64,000 nt of DNA from Actinoplanes derwentensis (GTDB lineage Bacteria; Actinomycetota; Actinomycetes; Mycobacteriales; Micromonosporaceae). Within the stretch, counting starts at the first letter, position 1. Each line of letters starts with the position of its first letter. The stretch lies in the NCBI RefSeq assembly GCF_900104725.1, contig NZ_LT629758.1, forward strand, positions 1,302,001-1,366,000, given 5' to 3'. Position numbers and translations under genes: made by a program. The notes under the pieces are model-generated. The model ran no database searches. It saw only the letters and a program-made list of their open reading frames with translations, and was not told where the DNA came from. Positions 7,453 to 62,815 of this stretch are shown one piece after another.

Positions 7453-10248
7453 GTGACCAGTGCCGATCTGACTGCCGCCCTGCGCCGGGCCGGGATCACC
7501 GACATCCTCACCGATGCCGCGCACCGGTCGGCGTACTCGAGTGACGCGTCCCTCTACCGGGTGGTTCCGCAGGCGATCGTGCGGCCGCGGCACGACGACG
7601 ACGTGCTGGCCGCGCTGGCGGTGTCCCGGGAGCTGGGGGTGCCGATCACGGCCCGTGGCGCGGGGACGTCGGTGGCCGGTAACGCGATCGGGTCGGGGCT
7701 GATCCTCGACTTCAGCAGGCACATGAACAAGGTTCTCGACGTCGACGGCGAAGCTCGCACCGCCCGGGTGCAGGCCGGGACCGTGCAGTCGGTGCTCCAG
7801 GCGGCGGCCAAACCGTACGGGCTGCGGTTCGGCCCCGACCCGTCGACGCACACCCGCTGCACCATCGGCGGCATGATCGGCAACAACTCGTGCGGGGCGC
7901 GGACCCTGGGTTACGGGCGGACCTCGGACAACACCGTCGGGCTGCGGGCCTACACCATCGAGGGTGAGGAGCTGCTCACCAATCCCCTCAAAGGGGCCGA
8001 AGCGGTCGTTTCGTCGTTGCGGAACGTGATCGGTGAGCATCTCGCCATCGGCCGCACCGAGTTCGCCACCTTCGGCCGCCAGGTCTCCGGATACGCCGTC
8101 GAGCACCTGCTGCCGGAGAACGGGTTCAACCTCACCGAGTTCCTGGTCGGCAGCGAGGGCACCCTCGCGGTGCTCACCGAGGCGACGGTCCGGCTGGTCG
8201 CCGACCCGGTGCACCGGACGATGATCGTGCTCGGTTACCCCGATTTCGGTACGGCCGGTGACATCATCCCGAAGATCCTGGAGTTCAAACCGACCGCCTG
8301 CGAAGGCCTCGACCACCGGATCTGTGACGTCGTGCGGTCCCGCCGCGGCCCGGACGCGGTGCCGCCGCTGCCCGCCGGAACCGCCTGGCTGATGATCGAG
8401 ATCGCCGGTGACGACCCGGACGAGGTCCGCTCACGCGTGGACGGCCTGGTCGCTGCGGCCGAGGCCGTCGACCACCGGATCGTCGAGGACGTCGCCGAGG
8501 CGGCCCCACTGTGGAAGATCCGGGAGGACGGCGCCGGTCTGGCCGGCCGGGCCCCGAGTGGCCGGCCCGCGCACGCCGGCTGGGAGGACGCCGCGGTGCC
8601 GCCCGCCCGGATCGGCGCCTACCTGCGGGACTTCGACGCGCTGGCCACCCGGCACGGGCTGTCGAACATGCCGTACGGCCACCTCGGCGACGGCTGTGTG
8701 CACGTCCGCCTGGACTTCCCGCTGGACAAACCGGACGGGCCGGCACTGTTCCGGGCGTTCCTCGAAGACGCCGCCGACCTGGTCGTCAGTTACGGCGGGT
8801 CACTGTCCGGCGAACACGGCGACGGCCGGGCCCGCTCCGAACTGCTGAGCCGCATGTACTCGCCCGACGCGATGAACCTGTTCCGGCAGATCAAAGGAGT
8901 CTTCGACCCGCGCAATCTGCTCAACCCGGGAAACATCGTCGATCCCGATCCGGTCGACGCCAACATCCGCGTCTCCCAGGCCCGCAAGGTCACCGTCCCG
9001 CTCGCACTGGCCTACCACTCCGACGGGGGGGACTTCAACCAGGCTGTCCACCGTTGTACGGGGGTCGGAAAGTGCCGCGTCGACACCTCGGTGCTCGGTG
9101 GGGTGATGTGCCCGTCGTTCCTGGCCACCAAGGACGAGAAGGATTCGACTCGGGGGCGGGCCCGGGTACTGCAGGAGATGCTGGACGGAGAATTGGCTCC
9201 GGATTGGCGCTCACCGGCCGTACACGATGCGCTTGATCTGTGTTTGTCGTGTAAGGGTTGTGCGTCGGACTGCCCGACCGGTATCGATATGGCGGCCTAC
9301 AAGTCCGAGGTGATTCACCAGAGTTATAAAGGGCGGGTGCGCCCTCGGTCGCATTATTCGCTCGGGTGGTTGCCACGGTGGTCACGATTGGCTTCGAAGA
9401 TGCCGGCGTTGGCGAACTTGGCTACTGGATTGCCCGGTATTCGTGGGCTGGCGTTGTGGGTGGCCGGTGTCGACAAGCGCCGAAACATCCCGACTTTTGC
9501 GCCTTCGACGTTCAGGTCTACATTCAAGCCGATCTCAGTGGGTAAACCGGTCGTCTTGTTCGTGGACAGCTTCACCGACCACTTCTCGCCGGAGATCGCC
9601 CGCGCTGCCGTGGACGTGCTGGTCGACGCCGGGTATGCGCCACAGATCGCCAGCCGGAAAGCCTGCTGCGGCCTCACCTGGATCTCCACCGGCCAGCTCG
9701 ACGCGGCCCGCCGCATCCTCGGCGCCACCGTCGCTGAGCTGCACGAATCGGTCAAGCAAGGCATTCCGATCGTCGGCTTGGAACCGTCCTGCACCGGGGT
9801 GCTCCGCCAGGACGCCGTCGAGCTGGTCGACAACGAGGCCGCCGCCGCCGTGGCAGCCGCGACCATGACGGTGGCTGAACTGCTCGCCGCCACTCCCGAT
9901 TACACCCCACCATCATTGGCGGGCGTACGGGTGATCGCGCAACCGCACTGCCACCACCATGCCGTGATGGGCTGGGACGCCGACGCCAAACTGTTGAAGA
10001 AAGCCGGAGCCACCGTCAAGCGCCTCGGCGGCTGCTGTGGTCTGGCCGGCAACTTCGGCGTCGAACGCGGCCATTACGAGGTTTCGGTGGCGGTGGCCGA
10101 ACAGCAGTTGCTGCCCGCGTTGGAGAAGGCGGAAGAGGGCGACATCTTCCTCGCCGACGGTTTCTCCTGCCGAACCCAGGCCGACGATCTGGCCGGCGTC
10201 TCCGGAGTCCACCTGGTCCAGCTACTCCAGGAACGCATCGGCCGCTGA
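7453..10248 (+). CDS. FAD-linked, Fe-S D-lactate dehydrogenase-type oxidoreductase
   Basis: The 931-residue protein fuses a PCMH-type FAD domain (residues about 30-250; ARGAGTSVAGNAIG, CTIGGMIGNNSCG), an FAD-oxidase C-terminal domain (250-520; GEHGDGRARSEL), a 4Fe-4S dicluster segment (CTGVGKC, then CLSCKGCASDCPTG) and a C-terminal pair of CCG domains (RKACCGLTWIS and GGCCGLAGNFG). This layout matches GlcD/GlcF or Dld-type D-2-hydroxyacid dehydrogenases feeding electrons to the respiratory chain. GTG 7453 is preferred over the longer open frame because GGAG lies six bases upstream and the extra N-terminus has no family counterpart. The exact hydroxy acid is not known. Confidence 0.88.
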   Translation: MTSADLTAALRRAGITDILTDAAHRSAYSSDASLYRVVPQAIVRPRHDDDVLAALAVSRELGVPITARGAGTSVAGNAIGSGLILDFSRHMNKVLDVDGEARTARVQAGTVQSVLQAAAKPYGLRFGPDPSTHTRCTIGGMIGNNSCGARTLGYGRTSDNTVGLRAYTIEGEELLTNPLKGAEAVVSSLRNVIGEHLAIGRTEFATFGRQVSGYAVEHLLPENGFNLTEFLVGSEGTLAVLTEATVRLVADPVHRTMIVLGYPDFGTAGDIIPKILEFKPTACEGLDHRICDVVRSRRGPDAVPPLPAGTAWLMIEIAGDDPDEVRSRVDGLVAAAEAVDHRIVEDVAEAAPLWKIREDGAGLAGRAPSGRPAHAGWEDAAVPPARIGAYLRDFDALATRHGLSNMPYGHLGDGCVHVRLDFPLDKPDGPALFRAFLEDAADLVVSYGGSLSGEHGDGRARSELLSRMYSPDAMNLFRQIKGVFDPRNLLNPGNIVDPDPVDANIRVSQARKVTVPLALAYHSDGGDFNQAVHRCTGVGKCRVDTSVLGGVMCPSFLATKDEKDSTRGRARVLQEMLDGELAPDWRSPAVHDALDLCLSCKGCASDCPTGIDMAAYKSEVIHQSYKGRVRPRSHYSLGWLPRWSRLASKMPALANLATGLPGIRGLALWVAGVDKRRNIPTFAPSTFRSTFKPISVGKPVVLFVDSFTDHFSPEIARAAVDVLVDAGYAPQIASRKACCGLTWISTGQLDAARRILGATVAELHESVKQGIPIVGLEPSCTGVLRQDAVELVDNEAAAAVAAATMTVAELLAATPDYTPPSLAGVRVIAQPHCHHHAVMGWDADAKLLKKAGATVKRLGGCCGLAGNFGVERGHYEVSVAVAEQQLLPALEKAEEGDIFLADGFSCRTQADDLAGVSGVHLVQLLQERIGR

Positions 10249-39099: not shown

Positions 39100-39993
39100 A
39101 TGACGCGGTTCGACTGCCATCAGCATCTGTGGCCCCCGGCTCTCGTGGAGGCGCTCAGGGAACGGGACGCCTTTCCCTACCTGCGGGAATGGACGCTGTA
39201 TCTGCCGGGGGAGAACCCCTACCGGGTGGATCCGGCGGCCCATGACGCCTTACGGCGCCGGGACCGGGAGACCGGGCGGGTGCTTCTCTCACTGTCCAGC
39301 CCGCTCGGGATCGAGCACTTGCCCGGTACGGACGGAGCCGCCCTGATCGACGTGTGGCACGCCAGCGCGCTGGAGCTTCCGGAACCGTTCGAGGTGTGGG
39401 CGGCGGCATCGGTGACCGAACCTGATCCGGCCGTTCTCGCGCGGGTGCTGCGGGAGCCGCGTGTGGTGGGGCTGCAACTGCCGGCCACGGCGCTCGGTGA
39501 CCCGGCGTCGATCGAGCGGATGTCGCCGCTGCTCAGTGAACTCGAACGGGCCGGTAAGCCGCTGCTGGTGCACCCCGGCCCGGCACGCGTCGAAGAGGGG
39601 GAACTGCCCGACTGGTGGGCCGCTGTCGTACCGTACGTCGCTCAGATGCACCGGTCCTGGGCTGCCTGGCATGTCGCCGGCCGCAAGCGGCACGCGGACC
39701 TCCGGATCGCCTTCGTCGCCCTGGCAGGGCTGGCCCCGCTGCATCACGAACGGCTCGTCGCCCGTGGTGGCGAGTTCGGCAGTCCCGACCCGAACGTCTT
39801 CTACGAGACGTCGTCCTACGGTCCGGACGCGATCAACGCCCTGATCGAGGTGGTGGGAGCGGGAGCGATCGTGCACGGTTCCGACCGGCCCTACGCGGAG
39901 CCGCTGGACCCGGAACGCTTCCCCGCGGAGATCTTCACCGTCAATCCGGGCCGGCTGCTCGGCATCTCCGGACTTCACTCTCGTGGCAGATAG
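39100..39993 (+). CDS. Amidohydrolase-superfamily protein
   Basis: The 297-residue TIM-barrel hydrolase opens with FDCHQHLWPP (metal-binding HxH), and has LLVHPGP in the middle and GSDRPYAEP near the end with the catalytic Asp. This fits the amidohydrolase_2 (ACMSD/lactonase-like) family; the substrate is unknown. ATG 39100 follows a GGGGGG stretch. Confidence 0.85.
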   Translation: MTRFDCHQHLWPPALVEALRERDAFPYLREWTLYLPGENPYRVDPAAHDALRRRDRETGRVLLSLSSPLGIEHLPGTDGAALIDVWHASALELPEPFEVWAAASVTEPDPAVLARVLREPRVVGLQLPATALGDPASIERMSPLLSELERAGKPLLVHPGPARVEEGELPDWWAAVVPYVAQMHRSWAAWHVAGRKRHADLRIAFVALAGLAPLHHERLVARGGEFGSPDPNVFYETSSYGPDAINALIEVVGAGAIVHGSDRPYAEPLDPERFPAEIFTVNPGRLLGISGLHSRGR

Positions 39994-56207: not shown

Positions 56208-57659
56208 TTAGAGAAGCCCGGCCAGGGACGGCAGCAAGTCGACAGCCGATTTGAGGTCTTCGTCGAGTGGGCGGTCGGTGAGGTCTCCGTCGAGGGCTTC
56301 GGTGGCCAGGTGGAACGCTTCGCGGGCGAGGCCGCCGGTGAGGCGGTCGGGGGCCAGGCGCAGGGCGCGGACCGCGGTGAGCAGTTCGGCGGCGATCATG
56401 GTGGGGGCGAGCCTGGTCATCACGCGCAGCGAGCGGGCGCCCTGGGTGGCGAAGCTGGCGTGTTCCTCCATGCCGAGCGAGATCGACAGGGTGCCGGAGG
56501 CGGTCGGATGGACCGCGGTGCGCATCTCGGCGAGCAGGTCCTGGACCACGTATTCGGTGATCATCAGTCCGGAGCTGCCGGGCGGTCCGGCGGCCAGGAA
56601 AGCACGCAGACCGGTCATGTCGGGGCGCATCAGCAGGCCGAGGCGGGCCGCGGACAGCGACAGTACGGGCAGGAAGGCGCCGCGGACCGCGTCCAGGCCG
56701 GCGGCCAGGGTGGCCGTGTGGAACTGGCCGTGGTGACGCACGCCGTCCGCGGTGACCAGCGGGTTCTCGGCGGCGGCGTTGATCTCGGCGGTGACGATCG
56801 CGGTGAGGGTCTCGGCGGCCTGCAGCGCGGGCGCGGTGACCTGGGGTACGACCCGGAGGCCGAACGGGTCCTGGATGCGCAGCGACGGACCGGAATCGGA
56901 CACCATCGTGTGCAGGGTGGCGGCGACGGCGACCTGGTGCGGGTGGGCGCGGCCGGCGTGGCTGGCCGGATCGTAGGCTTCGGGATTGCCGCGCAGGGCC
57001 AGGAACGACAGCGCGGCGACCACGGTCGATGCCCGCAGCTGGCTGTGCACCTGGGCGAGGGCGAGCGCGGACGTGGCGACGGTGAGCGCGCTGGAGCTGA
57101 TCATCGGCAGTGCGTCGGTGGGGCCGATGACGACGTCCCGGCCGGTGCCGTGCCGCCAGGGGCGGGCTCCGGCGAGGGTGAGCGCGAGTTCGGCCAGCGG
57201 CGACAGGTCGGCGGTGCCGATGCCGCCCCACCGGTGCAGGGTCGGGACAGCGCCGTCGGCGAGCGCGGTGGCCAGGGCTTCGGCGACCTGGCGCGAGATG
57301 CCGGACCCGCCAGCCAGAATCTGATTGAGCCGGACGGCCATGGTGGCTCGCGCCGTGACGTCGTCCTCCTCGGGCCCTACTCCGGCGCAATGACTGCGCA
57401 ACAGTCGCAGGGCATGCTCCTCGGGGTCGGCCTGTTCGTGCCGGTTGGCACCGACGCCGGTGTTGGCGCCGTAGACGGCCCCGCGGGCGCGGGCTTCGAC
57501 GAGGATGGCGTGCCGTTCCTCGACCAGGACGAGTGCCATCGGATCGAGGGTGATGTCGGCCGCTCCGGATGCGATCGCGCTCAGGTCTGGGATCGTCAGG
57601 GAGGCGCCATCGAGCCGGACCTGCACGTGAGTCTCCAACTCGTATCGGGCTGTTGACAT
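56208..57659 (-). CDS. HAL-fold lyase lacking the MIO triad, ergothionase candidate
   Basis: The 483-residue protein has the fold of histidine/phenylalanine ammonia-lyases: VYGANTGVG (62-70) keeps the catalytic Tyr, and ENPLVTADG and GMEEHASFAT are recognisable. The MIO-forming GSVGASGDLAPL of true ammonia-lyases is replaced by GGIGTADLSPL (145-155), with no Ser and one residue fewer, so the electrophilic cofactor cannot form. QDxYSLR is changed to QDPFGLR (263-269) and GGNFH to HGQFH (310-314). Family members without MIO include ergothionase, which eliminates trimethylamine. The divergent betaine-type importer supports a trimethylated substrate. ATG 57659 is used; there is no good ribosome site. 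Confidence 0.82.
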   Translation of the reverse strand: MSTARYELETHVQVRLDGASLTIPDLSAIASGAADITLDPMALVLVEERHAILVEARARGAVYGANTGVGANRHEQADPEEHALRLLRSHCAGVGPEEDDVTARATMAVRLNQILAGGSGISRQVAEALATALADGAVPTLHRWGGIGTADLSPLAELALTLAGARPWRHGTGRDVVIGPTDALPMISSSALTVATSALALAQVHSQLRASTVVAALSFLALRGNPEAYDPASHAGRAHPHQVAVAATLHTMVSDSGPSLRIQDPFGLRVVPQVTAPALQAAETLTAIVTAEINAAAENPLVTADGVRHHGQFHTATLAAGLDAVRGAFLPVLSLSAARLGLLMRPDMTGLRAFLAAGPPGSSGLMITEYVVQDLLAEMRTAVHPTASGTLSISLGMEEHASFATQGARSLRVMTRLAPTMIAAELLTAVRALRLAPDRLTGGLAREAFHLATEALDGDLTDRPLDEDLKSAVDLLPSLAGLL

Positions 57660-57660
57660 G

Positions 57661-57698
57661 CTATTCACTACTTCGCGAGTATGAATAGTAGTATTCAG
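57661..57698. promoter_or_regulatory. Palindromic operator between lyase and importer
   Basis: CTATTCACTACT (57661-57672) faces AGTATGAATAG (57678-57688), an inverted repeat with one missing base, and a further TATTCAG follows at 57692-57698. It fills nearly the whole 58-base gap between the two divergent units, so one factor could control both. No regulator gene is next to it. Confidence 0.65.
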
Positions 57699-57717
57699 AA
57701 GATCAACCAGGAGTACC

Positions 57718-58722
57718 ATGATCACATTCGAGGACGTCGTCAAGGTCTATCCCGGCGGCGGTACGGCGGTGGACCACCTGAGCATGGAGCTGCCCACCGG
57801 CAAGATGACGGTCCTGGTCGGGCCCTCCGGCTGCGGGAAGACCACGTCCCTGCGGATGATCAACCGAATGATCGAACCGACCGCGGGGCGCATCCTGATC
57901 GACGGTGAGGACGTCACCGCGAAGAACGAGGCGCTGCTGCGGCGGGGGATCGGGTACGTGATCCAGCACGCGGGGCTCTTCCCGCACCGGACCGTGCTGG
58001 ACAACGTCGCCACCGTGCCGGTGCTGACCGGTTCGACCCGCCGGGCCGCCCGGGCCAAGGCTCTGGAACTGCTCGAGCGAGTCGGATTGCCCGAGCAGTT
58101 CGCCAAGAGGTACCCGGCGCAGCTGTCCGGCGGTCAGCAGCAGCGGGTGGGGGTGGCCCGGGCGCTGGCCGCGGACCCGCCGATCATGCTGATGGACGAG
58201 CCGTTCAGCGCGGTCGACCCGGTGGTGCGGTTGCAGCTGCACGACGAGTTCCTGCGGTTGCAGCAGGACCTGGGCAAGACCATCGTGATGGTCACGCACG
58301 ACATCGACGAGGCGCTGAAGCTGGGCGACCGGGTGGCGGTGCTGCGTGAGGGTGGTCATCTGGCGCAGTTCGGCACGCCCCGGGATCTAGTGACAAATCC
58401 GGCAGACGACTTTGTCTCCGGATTTGTCGGTCGAGATCGGGGTTTGCGGGGTTTGTCATTCGACAGCGCCGCAGACCTGCCGGTCCAGGCGGTCGACGGT
58501 CTTTCCCTCGACGACGCCGGCCGCCCGCTCGGCTGGCCGTCGGATTCCGGCCTGCGGCCCACCAACGGCACCTTCACCAAGGAAGACTCGCTGCGCACCG
58601 TCACCGACCTGGTGATCAGCTCGCCGGTCGGGATCGCGGTGCGAGTCGGGCCGGACGGGGCCGCCGACGGCCTGGTCAGTCACCATGACCTGGCGGACCA
58701 TCTGGCAAGCCGCCGCTCATGA
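57718..58722 (+). CDS. OpuC-type ABC transporter ATPase
   Basis: This 334-residue ATPase of quaternary-amine importers has Walker A GPSGCGKTT, the family segment IQHAGLFPHRTVLDNV, signature LSGGQQQR and Walker B MLMDEPFSAVDP. A C-terminal region after residue 240 replaces paired CBS domains and retains only weak likeness to them. The first gene of a four-gene operon, it overlaps the permease by ATGA. Confidence 0.92.
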   Translation: MITFEDVVKVYPGGGTAVDHLSMELPTGKMTVLVGPSGCGKTTSLRMINRMIEPTAGRILIDGEDVTAKNEALLRRGIGYVIQHAGLFPHRTVLDNVATVPVLTGSTRRAARAKALELLERVGLPEQFAKRYPAQLSGGQQQRVGVARALAADPPIMLMDEPFSAVDPVVRLQLHDEFLRLQQDLGKTIVMVTHDIDEALKLGDRVAVLREGGHLAQFGTPRDLVTNPADDFVSGFVGRDRGLRGLSFDSAADLPVQAVDGLSLDDAGRPLGWPSDSGLRPTNGTFTKEDSLRTVTDLVISSPVGIAVRVGPDGAADGLVSHHDLADHLASRRS

Positions 58723-59357
58723 TCCAGTATTTGCAGAACAATCACGTGATCGTCTGGCAGGCGTTACAGGAACATCTCTACCTCGCCCTGCTGCCGATCC
58801 TGTTCGGGTTGGTGATCGCCCTGCCGCTCGGTTACCTGCCGGTCCGGTTCCCGAAGCTCTACCACCCGCTGGTCAACACGTTCGGCGTCCTCTACTCGAT
58901 CCCGTCGCTGGCGCTCTTCGTCTTCCTGCCGGTCATCCTCGGCACCAAGGTGCTGTCGCCGATCAACGTCATCGTCGCGCTGACCATTTACACGGTCGCG
59001 CTGCTGGCCCGCACCGTCGCCGACGGTCTGCGCGCGGTCGACGCGGTGGTGGTGCAGGCCGCGACCGCGATGGGTTACCGCCGGCTGCGGCGCCTGATCG
59101 AGGTCGAACTGCCGATCGCGCTGCCGGTGATCCTGGCCGGCCTGCGGGTCGCCACGGTCTCCAACATCAGCCTCGTCAGCGTCGGCTCGCTGATCGGCAT
59201 CGGCGGGCTCGGCCAGCTGTTCACCCGCGGATTCCAGCTCTTCTACATGGAGCCGATCCTGATCGGCATCATCCTGTCGGTGGTGCTCGCCGGGATCGCC
59301 GACCTGATCATCGTGCTCGTGCAGCGGGCGATCACCCCGTGGACGCGTGCCGCATGA
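58719..59357 (+). CDS. OpuC-type permease 1
   Basis: The 212-residue inner-membrane subunit has five helices, with the loop RTVADGLRAVDAVVVQAATAMG and ELPIALPVILAGLR forming the ATPase contact. It starts at ATG 58719 inside the ATPase stop and ends inside the start of the second permease. It forms the channel with that protein. Confidence 0.92.
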   Translation: MIQYLQNNHVIVWQALQEHLYLALLPILFGLVIALPLGYLPVRFPKLYHPLVNTFGVLYSIPSLALFVFLPVILGTKVLSPINVIVALTIYTVALLARTVADGLRAVDAVVVQAATAMGYRRLRRLIEVELPIALPVILAGLRVATVSNISLVSVGSLIGIGGLGQLFTRGFQLFYMEPILIGIILSVVLAGIADLIIVLVQRAITPWTRAA

Positions 59358-60013
59358 ACCTCTCGTACCTGCTCGACCCGGCCCACTGGGACCTCGGCGC
59401 GTCCGGCGGCATCCCGATGCTGATCCTGGACCACCTCGGCTACGTCGCCCTCGCCCTGCTCGCCGGCACGATCATCGCCCTGCCCGTCGGCCTGTACATC
59501 GGTCACACCGGCAAGGGCTCGTTCATCGCCATCAACGCCGGGAACGCCGGCCGGTCCCTGCCCACCCTGGGCCTGCTGATGCTGATGGTCACCCTGCTCG
59601 GCCTGGGGCTGCTGCCGGTGCTGATCGCGCTGACCGTGCTGGTCATCCCACCGATCCTGACCTCGTCGTACGCCGGGATGCGCAACGTGGATCAGCGCGT
59701 CGTCGACGCTGCCCGGGGCATGGGGATGCACCCGTGGCAGGTGCTCACCCGGGTCGAGCTGCCGATGGCGCTGCCGGTGATGATGGGCGGTTTCCGCAAC
59801 GCCGCCATCCAGGTGGTCGCGACCGCCACGGTGGCCGCCGCGGTCGGCCGCAGCGGGCTGGGCCGGCTGCTCATCGACGGCCTGGCCGTCAACGACTACT
59901 CCCGGGTACTGGCCGGCGCCATCGTCGTCGCCGCACTGGCCGTACTCGTCGATCTGTTTCTAGCACTGATCCAGCGCTGGATCGTCTCACCCGGACTGAA
60001 AGGTCTGTCATGA
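59354..60013 (+). CDS. OpuC-type permease 2
   Basis: This 219-residue homologue of the preceding permease has about five helices and a contact loop (RVVDAARGMGMHPWQVLTRV, ELPMALPVMMGGFRN). ATG 59354 overlaps the upstream stop (ATGA). The open frame further upstream is a shadow. Confidence 0.92.
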   Translation: MNLSYLLDPAHWDLGASGGIPMLILDHLGYVALALLAGTIIALPVGLYIGHTGKGSFIAINAGNAGRSLPTLGLLMLMVTLLGLGLLPVLIALTVLVIPPILTSSYAGMRNVDQRVVDAARGMGMHPWQVLTRVELPMALPVMMGGFRNAAIQVVATATVAAAVGRSGLGRLLIDGLAVNDYSRVLAGAIVVAALAVLVDLFLALIQRWIVSPGLKGLS

Positions 60014-60933
60014 AACGCATAACCGCCGCTCTCGCCGGCATCGCCCTGTCGCTGTCGCTCACCGCCTGTGGTGCCGACAGCGATCCGCTCGCCGACGAGC
60101 CCGCCGCCTCCGGTGCCGCCGGCGGCGCGGTCACCGTCGGCTCCGCGAACTTCCCGGAGAGCCAGCTGCTCGCCGAGATCTACTCCCAGGCCCTCGAGGG
60201 CAAGGGCGTCACGGTCACCCGGAAGTTCAACATCGGCGCCCGCGAGGTCTACCTCAAGGCGCTGCAGGACGGCTCGATCTCGCTGCTGCCCGAGTACAAC
60301 GGCGCGCTGCTGGCCGCCCTCTCGCCGAACGGCGTTCCGGAGTCGGCGACCAGCCCGGACGCCGTGCTCGCCGAGCTGAAGAAGGTGTTGCCGACCGGAA
60401 CCGAGGTGCTGACCCAGTCGGCCGCCGAGGACAAGGACACCCTGACGGTCACCGCGGAGACCGCCACCAAGAACAACCTGAAGACCATCGAGGACCTGAA
60501 GACGATCGCGCCCACCCTGGTCGTCGGTGCCGGTCCCGAGTTCGCCGAGCGTCACCAGGGCATCAAGGGCCTGGAAGAGGTGTACGGCCTGAAGTTCAAG
60601 GAGTTCAAGGCCCTGGACGCCGGTGGCCCGCTGACCATCAACGCCCTCAAGGACGGTGACATCCAGGTGGCGAACATCTACTCCACCGACTCGTCGATCG
60701 TCACCAACAAGTTCGTCGTCCTCGAGGACCCGAAGAACCTGTACTCGTCGCAGAACGTGATCCCGCTGATCCGCACCGAGGCCAACAACGCCACGGTGAC
60801 CGGCGCTCTCGACGCCGTCTCGGCCAAGCTCACCACCGAGAACCTCACCGCTTACCTGGCTCAGGTGCAGGTCGACAAGAAGGACATCGCCGTGGTGGCG
60901 ACGGCCTTCCTGTCGGAGAACGGCCTCAAGTAA
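60010..60933 (+). CDS. OpuC-type substrate-binding lipoprotein
   Basis: The 307-residue lipoprotein has signal MKRITAALAGIALSLSLTAC and lipobox LTAC. The OpuAC fold follows: VGSANFPESQLLAEIYSQAL, then LPEYNGALLAAL and a late NVIPLIR. Relatives bind glycine betaine, choline, carnitine or, in the EgtU type, ergothioneine. ATGA overlaps the permease, and a terminator follows. Linkage to the MIO-less lyase suggests a trimethylammonium compound as ligand. Confidence 0.9.
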   Translation: MKRITAALAGIALSLSLTACGADSDPLADEPAASGAAGGAVTVGSANFPESQLLAEIYSQALEGKGVTVTRKFNIGAREVYLKALQDGSISLLPEYNGALLAALSPNGVPESATSPDAVLAELKKVLPTGTEVLTQSAAEDKDTLTVTAETATKNNLKTIEDLKTIAPTLVVGAGPEFAERHQGIKGLEEVYGLKFKEFKALDAGGPLTINALKDGDIQVANIYSTDSSIVTNKFVVLEDPKNLYSSQNVIPLIRTEANNATVTGALDAVSAKLTTENLTAYLAQVQVDKKDIAVVATAFLSENGLK

Positions 60934-61001: not shown

Positions 61002-61059
61002 TTGACGATGTACTCGCGGGTATCTATCTTCTGATGCAAGGATTTGCAAAATCTGCAAA
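61002..61059 (+). promoter_or_regulatory. Alpha-amylase promoter and operator
   Basis: TTGACG (61002-61007) and TATCTT (61025-61030) are separated by 17 bases. Just downstream, TTTGCA-5-TGCAAA (61043-61059) is a perfect inverted repeat, with an additional TGCAAG at 61035. Similar TTGCA/TGCAA repeats are known as maltose-regulator sites before streptomycete amylase genes. Confidence 0.7.
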
Positions 61060-61087
61060 CTCTTTCCCCTTCCCCCAGGAGATCGAT

Positions 61088-62815
61088 GTGGACAGACGCC
61101 TGACCCGCATCCTGGCCGCCACCACCCTTGCCCTCGGCATCGGCGGCTTCGGCATCGCTCAGATCGCCACCGGCCCCTCCGCCTACGCCGCTCCGCCCGG
61201 CGCCAAGGACGTCACGGCCGTCATGTTCGAGTGGTCGTTCGCCTCGGTCGCCCGCGAGTGCACCAGCACGCTGGGCCCGCTCGGCTACGGATATGTGCAG
61301 GTCTCCCCGCCGCAGGAGCACATCCAAGGGTCGCAGTGGTGGACGTCGTACCAGCCGGTGTCGTACCGGATCGCCGGTCGTCTGGGTGACCGCACCGCCT
61401 TCGCGAACATGGTGACCACATGTCACGCGGCCGGTGTCAAGGTCATCGCCGACACGGTCATCAACCACATGAGCGCCGGTTCCGGTACGGGTACCGGCGG
61501 CAGCTCGTACAGCAAGTACAACTATCCGGGCGTCTACTCCGACGCCGACTTCCACACCTGCCGCACCGCGATCAGCGACTACACCAACCGCGGGAACGTA
61601 CAGGATTGTGAACTGGTCAACCTCTCGGACCTCAACACCGGAAGCGATTACGTACGCGGAAAGATCGCCGGCTACCTCAACGACCTCGCCTCCCTGGGAG
61701 TCGACGGGTTCCGCATCGACGCCGCCAAACACATCTCCGCCGCCGACCTGGCCGGGATCAAGTCGAAACTGTCGAACACCGGCGCCTACTGGAAACAGGA
61801 GGTGATCTTCGGTTCCGGCGAAGCAGTCCAGCCGACCGAATACACCGGCACCGGTGACGTGCAGGAGTTCCGGTTCGCCCGCGACCTCAAGCGGGTGTTC
61901 CTCAACGAGAACCTCGCCTACCTGTCCAACTTCGGCACCGCCTGGGGTTACCTGCCCAGCAGTCAGGCCGCGGTCTTCGTCGACAACCACGACACCGAAC
62001 GTGGCGGGGACACACTCAACTACAAGAACGGGTCGGCATACACGCTCGCGCAGGTGTTCACCCTGGCCTGGCCGTACGGCGCACCGGACGTCAACTCCGG
62101 CTACGAGTTCACCGACCACGACGCCGGGCCGCCCGGCAACGGCACGGTCAGCGCCTGCTACGCCGACGGCTGGAAATGCCAGCACGCGTGGCGGCAGATC
62201 GGCAACATGGTCGGATTCCGCAACACCGTCGCCGGTACGGCCGTCACGAACTGGTGGAGCAACGGAGCCGACCAGATCGCCTTCGGGCGCGGCAGCAAGG
62301 GCTACGTCGCGATCAACCACGAGGGCAGTTCGCTGACTCGGACCTTCCAGACGTCACTGCCCGCCGGAACCTACTGCGACGTGCAGCACGGCGACCCGAC
62401 CGCGTCCGGCGGCTGCACCGGCACCAGCTACACGGTCAACGCCTCCGGTCAGTTCACCGCCACCATCGGAGCGGGCGACGCGGTCGCGATCTACGTCGGC
62501 GCCAGCGGAGGGACCACCACACCGGTGACCGGCACCGGCTTCAACGTGACCGCCACGACGACACTCGGGCAGAACATCTTCGTCACCGGCAACCAGGCAG
62601 CGCTCGGCAACTGGGCACCGGCCAGTGCTGTCGCGCTGTCATCGGCCACCTATCCGGTGTGGAAGGGGACCGTCTCACTGCCCGCCGGAACCGTGTTCGA
62701 GTACAAGTACCTCCGCAAGAACAGCGACGGCACCGTGACCTGGGAATCCGGCGCCAACCGGACCGCCACCGTCCCGGCCGGCGGCCAGCTCACCCTCACC
62801 GACACCTGGCGCTAG
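61088..62815 (+). CDS. Secreted GH13 alpha-amylase with CBM20
   Basis: The 575-residue secreted enzyme starts at GTG 61088, with AGGAG six bases upstream. The signal peptide ends near AYA-APPG. The GH13 conserved regions appear in order: [17 protein letters not shown] with the nucleophile Asp, EVIFG with the acid Glu and [11 protein letters not shown] linker near residue 475 leads to a C-terminal starch-binding CBM20 ([33 protein letters not shown]). It hydrolyses starch outside the cell under the promoter described above. Confidence 0.95.

Follow-up and report, generated by a model that had tools for sequence, protein, structure and literature searches.

Actinomycetes and fungi synthesize ergothioneine, an antioxidant that animals take up, and a 2024 study (Angew. 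Chem.) reportedly described two actinobacterial enzymes, an ergothioneine dioxygenase and a sulfinate desulfinase. In the chemistry of histidine ammonia-lyase (HAL, HutH), a 4-methylideneimidazole-5-one (MIO) group activates the alpha-amine as the leaving group. Bacterial ergothioneine breakdown has been assigned to a gene in few organisms, according to PMC13405746. The described systems closest to the present locus are the ergothionase of Treponema denticola (PDB 6s7j, 6s7q), HutH, the actinobacterial dioxygenase-desulfinase system, and the ergothioneine importer EgtU (PMC9732360). Here we describe a MIO-less lyase of the HAL fold and a divergent ATP-binding cassette (ABC) importer at positions 56208-60933 of a 64,000-nucleotide stretch (the window) of Actinoplanes derwentensis (contig NZ_LT629758.1, positions 1,302,001 to 1,366,000), a soil actinomycete with a 10.65-Mb single-contig genome. 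Comparisons of sequence and gene neighborhood lead us to propose that the lyase is a hercynine trimethylamine-lyase yielding urocanate, acting together with an importer of ergothioneine or hercynine, a reading to which we assign a probability of about 0.57.

Results

The lyase gene (56208..57626, minus strand) encodes 472 amino acids from a probable GTG start and matches PF00221 at 320.5 bits. A first-pass annotation of the window had described a 483-residue HAL homolog carrying GGIGTADLSPL, QDPFGLR, and HGQFH, and all of these (the last as HHGQFH) are present in the longer version of the open reading frame (ORF; 56208-57659, minus strand), in which 483 residues are counted from ATG 57659. GTG 57626 is probably the true start, since ATG 57659 lies three bases from a palindrome described below and its counterpart in the nearest relative (L010, 93% identity) is not in the reading frame of the lyase. 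One residue is missing from the MIO loop (GGIG-TA-D vs. GSVG-ASG-D). As claimed in that annotation, the lyase has no MIO tripeptide; it also has derived active-site features in common with ergothionase-type proteins. The short loop was found in all 120 homologs among the matches listed, making it a family trait; in a few of these the loop pair is T-S or I-S, so that Ser is possible, and the A-S-G tripeptide occurs in none of the 120. In our alignment, 42/43 importer-linked lyases had TG, TA, TS, or MG as the loop pair and 38/38 lyases without an importer had TG or TS, while the loop read EG, EA, QG, or AG in 120/120 ergothionase-type proteins and ASG or SSG in 11/11 HALs. In the single exception, L040 (Actinoplanes sp. 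M2I2, about 8001-9412), the lyase gene looks disrupted just past the MIO loop in the assembly used. Comparison of the window's lyase with that of A. couchii gave a nonsynonymous rate (dN) of 0.048 and a synonymous rate (dS) of 0.32, indicating purifying selection. The NCBIfam HutH model matched the lyase at 240.8 bits, under its cut-off of 539.15, and the genome has one further PF00221 gene, a HAL (619.9 bits). More MIO-less HAL homologs, with loops such as GTGD, GAGD, and GSGD, occur in the phylum (L123-L131, L137).

The alignment held 120 ergothionase-type proteins, the best matches to the T. denticola chain, and 11 HALs, consisting of the genome's own and ten from a phylum search; to our knowledge, only the T. 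denticola enzyme among the former is characterized, and we know of no characterized protein among the latter. The lyase carries the motifs SSxA and GVGxN, and several residues were the commonest in both MIO-less groups and present in 0/11 HALs: V69 and N72 (both in 120/120 ergothionase-type proteins), Leu111 (118/120), Asn112 (110/120), Ser188 (112/120), Ser189 (105/120), and Ala191 (115/120). Importer-linked lyases, ergothionase-type proteins, and HALs all keep Tyr63, His90, Gln263, Arg269, Phe313, Glu398, and His400, except for 2/120 ergothionase-type proteins at His400 and the disrupted L040 at Tyr63 and His90; among importer-linked lyases, Gln263, Arg269, and Glu398 were found in 43/43 and Tyr63 and His90 in 42/43. 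The MIO-side Asn of HAL and a Tyr (N195 and Y280 in HAL numbering) are lost in the lyase, with Phe at the Tyr280 position. Other positions separate the lyase from ergothionase-type proteins, in which its loop residue Thr149 is Glu (118/120), His314 is Glu (118/120), and Tyr370, a Tyr also in HALs, is Lys (115/120). His309, Glu369, and Tyr370 were invariant in 43/43 importer-linked and 38/38 other lyases.

In a tree of 87 rows (quick search, midpoint root), 18 ergothionase-type rows lay on one side of a branch with a Shimodaira-Hasegawa-like approximate likelihood ratio test (SH-aLRT) value of 100, with the lyase outside, and the HALs formed another clade. The lyase family and other MIO-less lyases fell on the ergothionase side of the tree (SH-aLRT 93). 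Given the tree and the residue differences, we regard the lyase as a distinct MIO-less class and not as an ergothionase. It has in common with the T. denticola enzyme the PF00221 domain, a loop one residue short, Ser replacing the HAL Asn, the GVGxN motif, and the Tyr/His/Gln/Arg/Glu set, but has Thr for the ergothionase loop Glu, QFH for NFE, and EY for QK, belongs to a separate clade, and is linked to an importer, a dioxygenase, and HutU-type neighbors. HutH belongs to the same family, has most of the same active site, and gives the higher phmmer score; the lyase differs from it in lacking the ASG tripeptide and the MIO-side Asn, and the genome's true HutH lies elsewhere. NCBIfam models were also considered for assigning ergothionase identity and were set aside, because the T. 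denticola ergothionase (P0121) itself matches only HutH-type and aminomutase models, below their cut-offs, so that none of these models could decide the matter.

A scan of genome contigs confirmed 332 relatives, of which the best 80 were kept as loci. An importer adjoined the lyase in 42 of these 80 loci, with all four genes in 41 and the ATPase alone in L068, which is at a contig end; 41 were divergent and one (L056) co-directional. The arrangement was present in Actinoplanes, Arthrobacter, Kineococcus, Frigoribacterium, Labedella, and Nocardioides relatives, at lyase identities down to ~49%. In the window, the importer genes are all on the plus strand with overlapping junctions and encode a ProV/OpuCA-like ATPase (57718..58722; 334 aa; PF00005, 131.1 bits; TIGR01186, 309.4 bits, just below the 326.6 cut-off), permease 1 (58719..59357; 212 aa; PF00528, 56.7 bits), permease 2 (59354..60013; 219 aa; a homolog in 41/42 importer loci), and a substrate-binding lipoprotein (60010..60933; 307 aa; PF04069, 176.7 bits). 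A PF04069 binding protein, two permeases, and a ProV-like ATPase are the components of the OpuC/ProX class, and the complete divergent four-gene importer reported earlier is confirmed by the ORFs, the Pfam matches, and the related loci. The pairing of lyase and importer likewise stands, given its presence in 42/80 loci and a palindrome between most divergent pairs, and we consider the two to be a conserved, probably co-regulated unit. The 38 importer-less loci were among L049-L089 (e.g., L050, L062, and L073; Streptomyces, Amycolatopsis, Pseudonocardia, and others), with a major facilitator superfamily transporter nearby in 17/38 and an RpiR regulator, 39-42% identical to the RpiR of importer clusters, in 9/38. 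Downstream of the window's importer lies a putative secreted alpha-amylase with a starch-binding domain (61034-62815, plus strand), with a similar gene in the same place in L010-L013.

The palindrome ATTCACTACTTCGCGAGTATGAAT (ATTCA-N14-TGAAT; 57663..57686) lies in the gap between the lyase and ATPase genes, and we propose it as an operator common to both units. Exactly one strict copy was present in this gap in 37/41 divergent loci; the loci missing it were L012, L039, L068, and L079, with degenerate forms in L012 and L079. No strict palindrome occurred elsewhere in the 80 loci, and a reversed-pattern control gave 0 matches. Across the whole A. derwentensis genome, the pattern was found at two places, the window's site and 798552, the latter probably a chance match because the control pattern also occurs once. 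By lineage, it was present in the Actinoplanes, Arthrobacter, Frigoribacterium, and Labedella relatives and not in those of Kineococcus and Nocardioides. An RpiR regulator was considered as the palindrome's binder and rejected, being present (at least 50% identity) in only 21/42 importer loci.

The pocket of the binding protein was compared with AfProX and, via AfProX and not by direct alignment, with the EgtU positions Phe293, Gly244, and Lys242 discussed in PMC9732360. These three correspond to Tyr96, Phe48, and Ala46 in 42/42 binding proteins. Tyr63 of the AfProX cage is kept as Tyr96 in 42/42, and Tyr190 is Phe in 41 and Tyr in the window's protein, while Tyr111 is Asp143 in 42/42 and Tyr214 is Glu (33) or Gln (9); the Lys13 position is Ala46. 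The carboxylate pair E177 and R181 was kept in 42/42 proteins and does not single out EgtU, because AfProX has both residues too. The same signature recurred in L182 and L183 (beside egtABCD), L187, L189, and L195. EgtU (PMC9732360) and the present importer have in common the PF04069 domain and a carboxylate-binding Arg with a Glu partner, and differ in that the binding protein here is a separate lipoprotein and not a permease fusion and in the replaced pocket residues; on the AfProX-mapped positions, EgtU membership was rejected. The pocket residues argue against EgtU-type binding as published (PMC9732360), but they define a consistent subfamily tied to ergothioneine genes. Its sole NCBIfam match was OsmF, at 92.2 bits against a cut-off of 400.

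A thiol dioxygenase of the type found in L014 lay 3' of the lyase in 30/42 importer loci and in 0/38 others, and four of the 12 importer loci without it were short contigs. An amidohydrolase accompanied the dioxygenase in 30/30 cases, with its match starting within 1.2 kb. The L014 dioxygenase is 62% identical to the chain of PDB 8qfr (215 bits) and matched other cysteine dioxygenases in PDB weakly (33 bits); a single-sequence model of it had a mean predicted local distance difference test score of 40.5 and was not used. The closest named homologs of the 8qfr chain, among the matches listed, were mostly from Streptosporangium, Nonomuraea, and Planomonospora. The PDB entries 8qfl-8qfr are presumably the ergothioneine dioxygenase of Thermocatellispora tengchongensis; in keeping with this, these genera belong to the Streptosporangiaceae, the family of that organism. 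The partner of that enzyme is presumably a metal-dependent sulfinate desulfinase releasing hercynine, to whose family the neighboring amidohydrolase would presumably belong.

Among 200 genomes of the family to which A. derwentensis belongs, at cut-offs set after a score gap had been seen (dioxygenase at least 280 bits, lyase at least 600 bits), the dioxygenase was present in 13, all within the 16 with the lyase, and in 0/184 others; four further genomes had an intermediate lyase (294-346 bits), and G179 alone among these had an intermediate dioxygenase (193 bits), ~1 kb away. A survey of 394 genomes of the class gave the dioxygenase at E ≤1e-30 in 24, which together with G179 made 25 loci, each covering ~8 kb on either side or less where a contig ended. 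The amidohydrolase adjoined the dioxygenase in 24/25 of these, the dioxygenase of L194 being at a contig end. The lyase was present in 9/25, with the short GTGD loop in 9/9, and the importer in 5/25, always together with the lyase. In L182 and L183, the cluster adjoins egtA, egtB, egtC, and egtD; EgtA, EgtB, and EgtD of L183 and EgtD of L182 passed NCBIfam cut-offs, and the other egt calls were made by tblastn. L189 combines lyase, importer, dioxygenase, amidohydrolase, a second lyase, a cyclodeaminase-like gene, RpiR, and HutU (879 bits, above its cut-off, with thiourocanate hydratase models under theirs), and L190 combines dioxygenase, amidohydrolase, and HutU. The second PF00221 lyase, with AAG replacing ASG and no MIO Ser (L014:11905-13668 and L189:10776-12242, both minus strand), occurred with an ornithine-cyclodeaminase-like gene in 28/42 importer loci; its position among the HALs in the tree means that loss of MIO may not have been a single event. 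In L171, L172, L174, L176, L177, L180, L187, and L195, repeats of the TTCAGTGAA/TTCACTGAA type are found in the space separating the starts of a LacI-type regulator and the amidohydrolase genes, or very close to these starts, and are a possible operator for the dioxygenase unit.

The A. derwentensis genome encodes egtABCD, with EgtA at 365.3 bits, just under the 370.8 cut-off, and EgtB, EgtC, and EgtD above theirs. It also has an RpiR-HutU-HutI-HutH cluster, whose RpiR, beside HutU, is the closest counterpart in this genome (43%) of the RpiR of related clusters. The genome's single urocanase belongs to the HutU type (882.6 bits) and scores 646 bits with the thiourocanate hydratase model, under its cut-off of 930, which favors urocanate over thiourocanate. 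An Amidohydro_2 protein of 297 aa (39100..39993, plus strand), ~16 kb from the lyase and adjoining an aldose-epimerase-like ORF, is 74% identical to the amidohydrolase beside the thiol dioxygenase in related loci. The two genomes of the family with the nearest lyase scores, G177 and G309, are without the dioxygenase, like that of A. derwentensis. The lyases of this subgroup may therefore act on hercynine that comes from the environment or that the cell makes itself.

Discussion

The comparisons show which genes are present, how they are conserved, that the MIO tripeptide is lost, that a palindrome lies between the units, and that dioxygenase, amidohydrolase, egt, and hut genes accompany related clusters; from this we infer the following substrate, products, transported ligand, and regulation. 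The importer would take up ergothioneine or hercynine under an operator common with the lyase. In most importer-bearing relatives, the dioxygenase would turn ergothioneine into its sulfinate, which the amidohydrolase would then turn into hercynine and SO2. The lyase would split hercynine (N-alpha-trimethylhistidine) into trimethylamine and urocanate without MIO, which would not be needed because a quaternary ammonium departs readily without such activation, and urocanate would enter the Hut pathway, with HutU, HutI, and HutH encoded in the genome. The His and Glu that the lyase retains from HAL are in keeping with an imidazole ring in the substrate. A HutU-type urocanase in the genome and in L189 fits urocanate as the product and thereby hercynine as the substrate, and the occurrence of egtABCD, dioxygenase with amidohydrolase, and HutU beside related clusters makes a trimethylated histidine the likely substrate. 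Of the first-pass annotation's suggestion that the two units import and degrade a trimethylated amino acid, the substrate type is thus retained and narrowed, and the EgtU identity is dropped. An ergothionase identity is dropped as well, as the T. denticola type forms a separate clade whose loop Glu and Lys are Thr and Tyr here. Together, lyase and importer probably contribute to the recycling of ergothioneine or of hercynine, its parent compound.

Other readings account for parts of these data. If the lyase were an actinobacterial ergothionase, releasing trimethylamine from ergothioneine itself and forming thiourocanate, then the lack of MIO, the SSxA and GVGxN features, the clusters beside egtABCD, and a genome without the dioxygenase would all be explained; we consider this unlikely, given the separate clade, the replaced loop Glu and Lys, a sole urocanase that is HutU and not a thiourocanate hydratase, and a thione-consuming dioxygenase in the same cluster, which would compete for the substrate. 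Similarly doubtful is action of the lyase on ergothioneine sulfinate or sulfonate, or on N-alpha-dimethylhistidine, with the amidohydrolase doing something else. The dioxygenase of the same cluster would produce the sulfinate, the amidohydrolase's function is a presumed one, and the binding pocket has acidic residues at positions that are aromatic in ProX, yet the amidohydrolase accompanies the dioxygenase in 30/30 and 24/25 loci, as expected of consecutive steps, and HutU in L189 points to urocanate.

An ordinary osmolyte importer beside a lyase acting on an unrelated aromatic betaine or amino acid, with the neighborhood reflecting shared ancestry only, would suit the OpuAC-class binding protein, whose only NCBIfam match is OsmF (far under its cut-off), and the 38/80 loci that have the lyase without the importer. 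We find it improbable, because the layout is kept across six genera to ~49% lyase identity, with the palindrome in four of them, and the pocket signature of the binding protein is seen again next to egtABCD. A degenerate or regulatory protein without a catalytic role might be suspected, since MIO and two HAL residues, Asn and Tyr, are lost, but purifying selection and the retention of Gln263, Arg269, and Glu398 in every importer-linked lyase, and of Tyr63 and His90 in all but the disrupted L040, render this very improbable.

Several observations weigh against hercynine cleavage coupled to ergothioneine or hercynine import. The EgtU-type binding proposed in the first-pass annotation did not hold, with the residues at the EgtU positions Phe293, Gly244, and Lys242, mapped via AfProX, replaced in 42/42 proteins; two of the four cage Tyr are Asp and Glu/Gln, making a trimethylammonium ligand less likely. 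The lyase occurs without importer or dioxygenase in 38/80 loci, no such lyase was present in the fetched stretch of 16/25 dioxygenase loci, and one (G179) of four genomes with an intermediate lyase has an intermediate dioxygenase. Among the five importer loci found via the dioxygenase, only L189 has the strict palindrome, which is missing in 4/5, so the operator is not universal. The 8qfr chain is named "Cysteine dioxygenase" in PDB, its identity as an ergothioneine dioxygenase being presumed. In the A. derwentensis genome, a close dioxygenase was not found (best match 37%, 59.9 bits), which leaves the route from ergothioneine to hercynine unaccounted for here, though the amidohydrolase is kept. 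Finally, the split joining the lyase family and ergothionases, with its SH-aLRT of 93 in a quick tree, is under the tool's 95 mark, and the lyase's phmmer score is higher to a HAL-type chain (157 bits) than to ergothionase (100 bits).

The first-pass annotation knew of no described actinomycete locus of this kind, a statement overtaken in part by the 2024 study, which is said to include an actinobacterial ergothioneine dioxygenase and sulfinate desulfinase. Our clusters presumably have in common with that system the dioxygenase 62% identical to 8qfr and the amidohydrolase; they differ in that lyase, importer, and operator would add uptake and a post-hercynine step, and the window's genome is without a close dioxygenase. 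The novelty would lie in having the lyase and importer next to such genes. Literature searches gave no paper on an actinobacterial hercynine lyase among the matches listed, which is no proof of absence as subscription literature was mostly outside the search. The locus adds to ergothionase a further class of HAL-fold lyase without MIO, in a context that combines an importer with oxidative ergothioneine breakdown and Hut.

The broadest form of our proposal, for which we see about even odds, is a complete oxygen-dependent pathway from ergothioneine to urocanate in actinobacteria, with a new MIO-independent class of lyase specific for hercynine, fed by a new, non-EgtU class of importer, an operator common to the two in most lineages, and in some cases a junction with egtABCD, so that the same cell would make, import, and dismantle ergothioneine. 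If the assignment is true, a hercynine lyase would supply the missing link from oxidative breakdown of ergothioneine to the Hut pathway, hercynine would become a second substrate class for MIO-less HAL-fold enzymes, and sequence markers would be gained for another kind of ergothioneine or hercynine importer. Database names such as "histidine ammonia-lyase" or "aromatic amino acid lyase" would then need correcting for this family.

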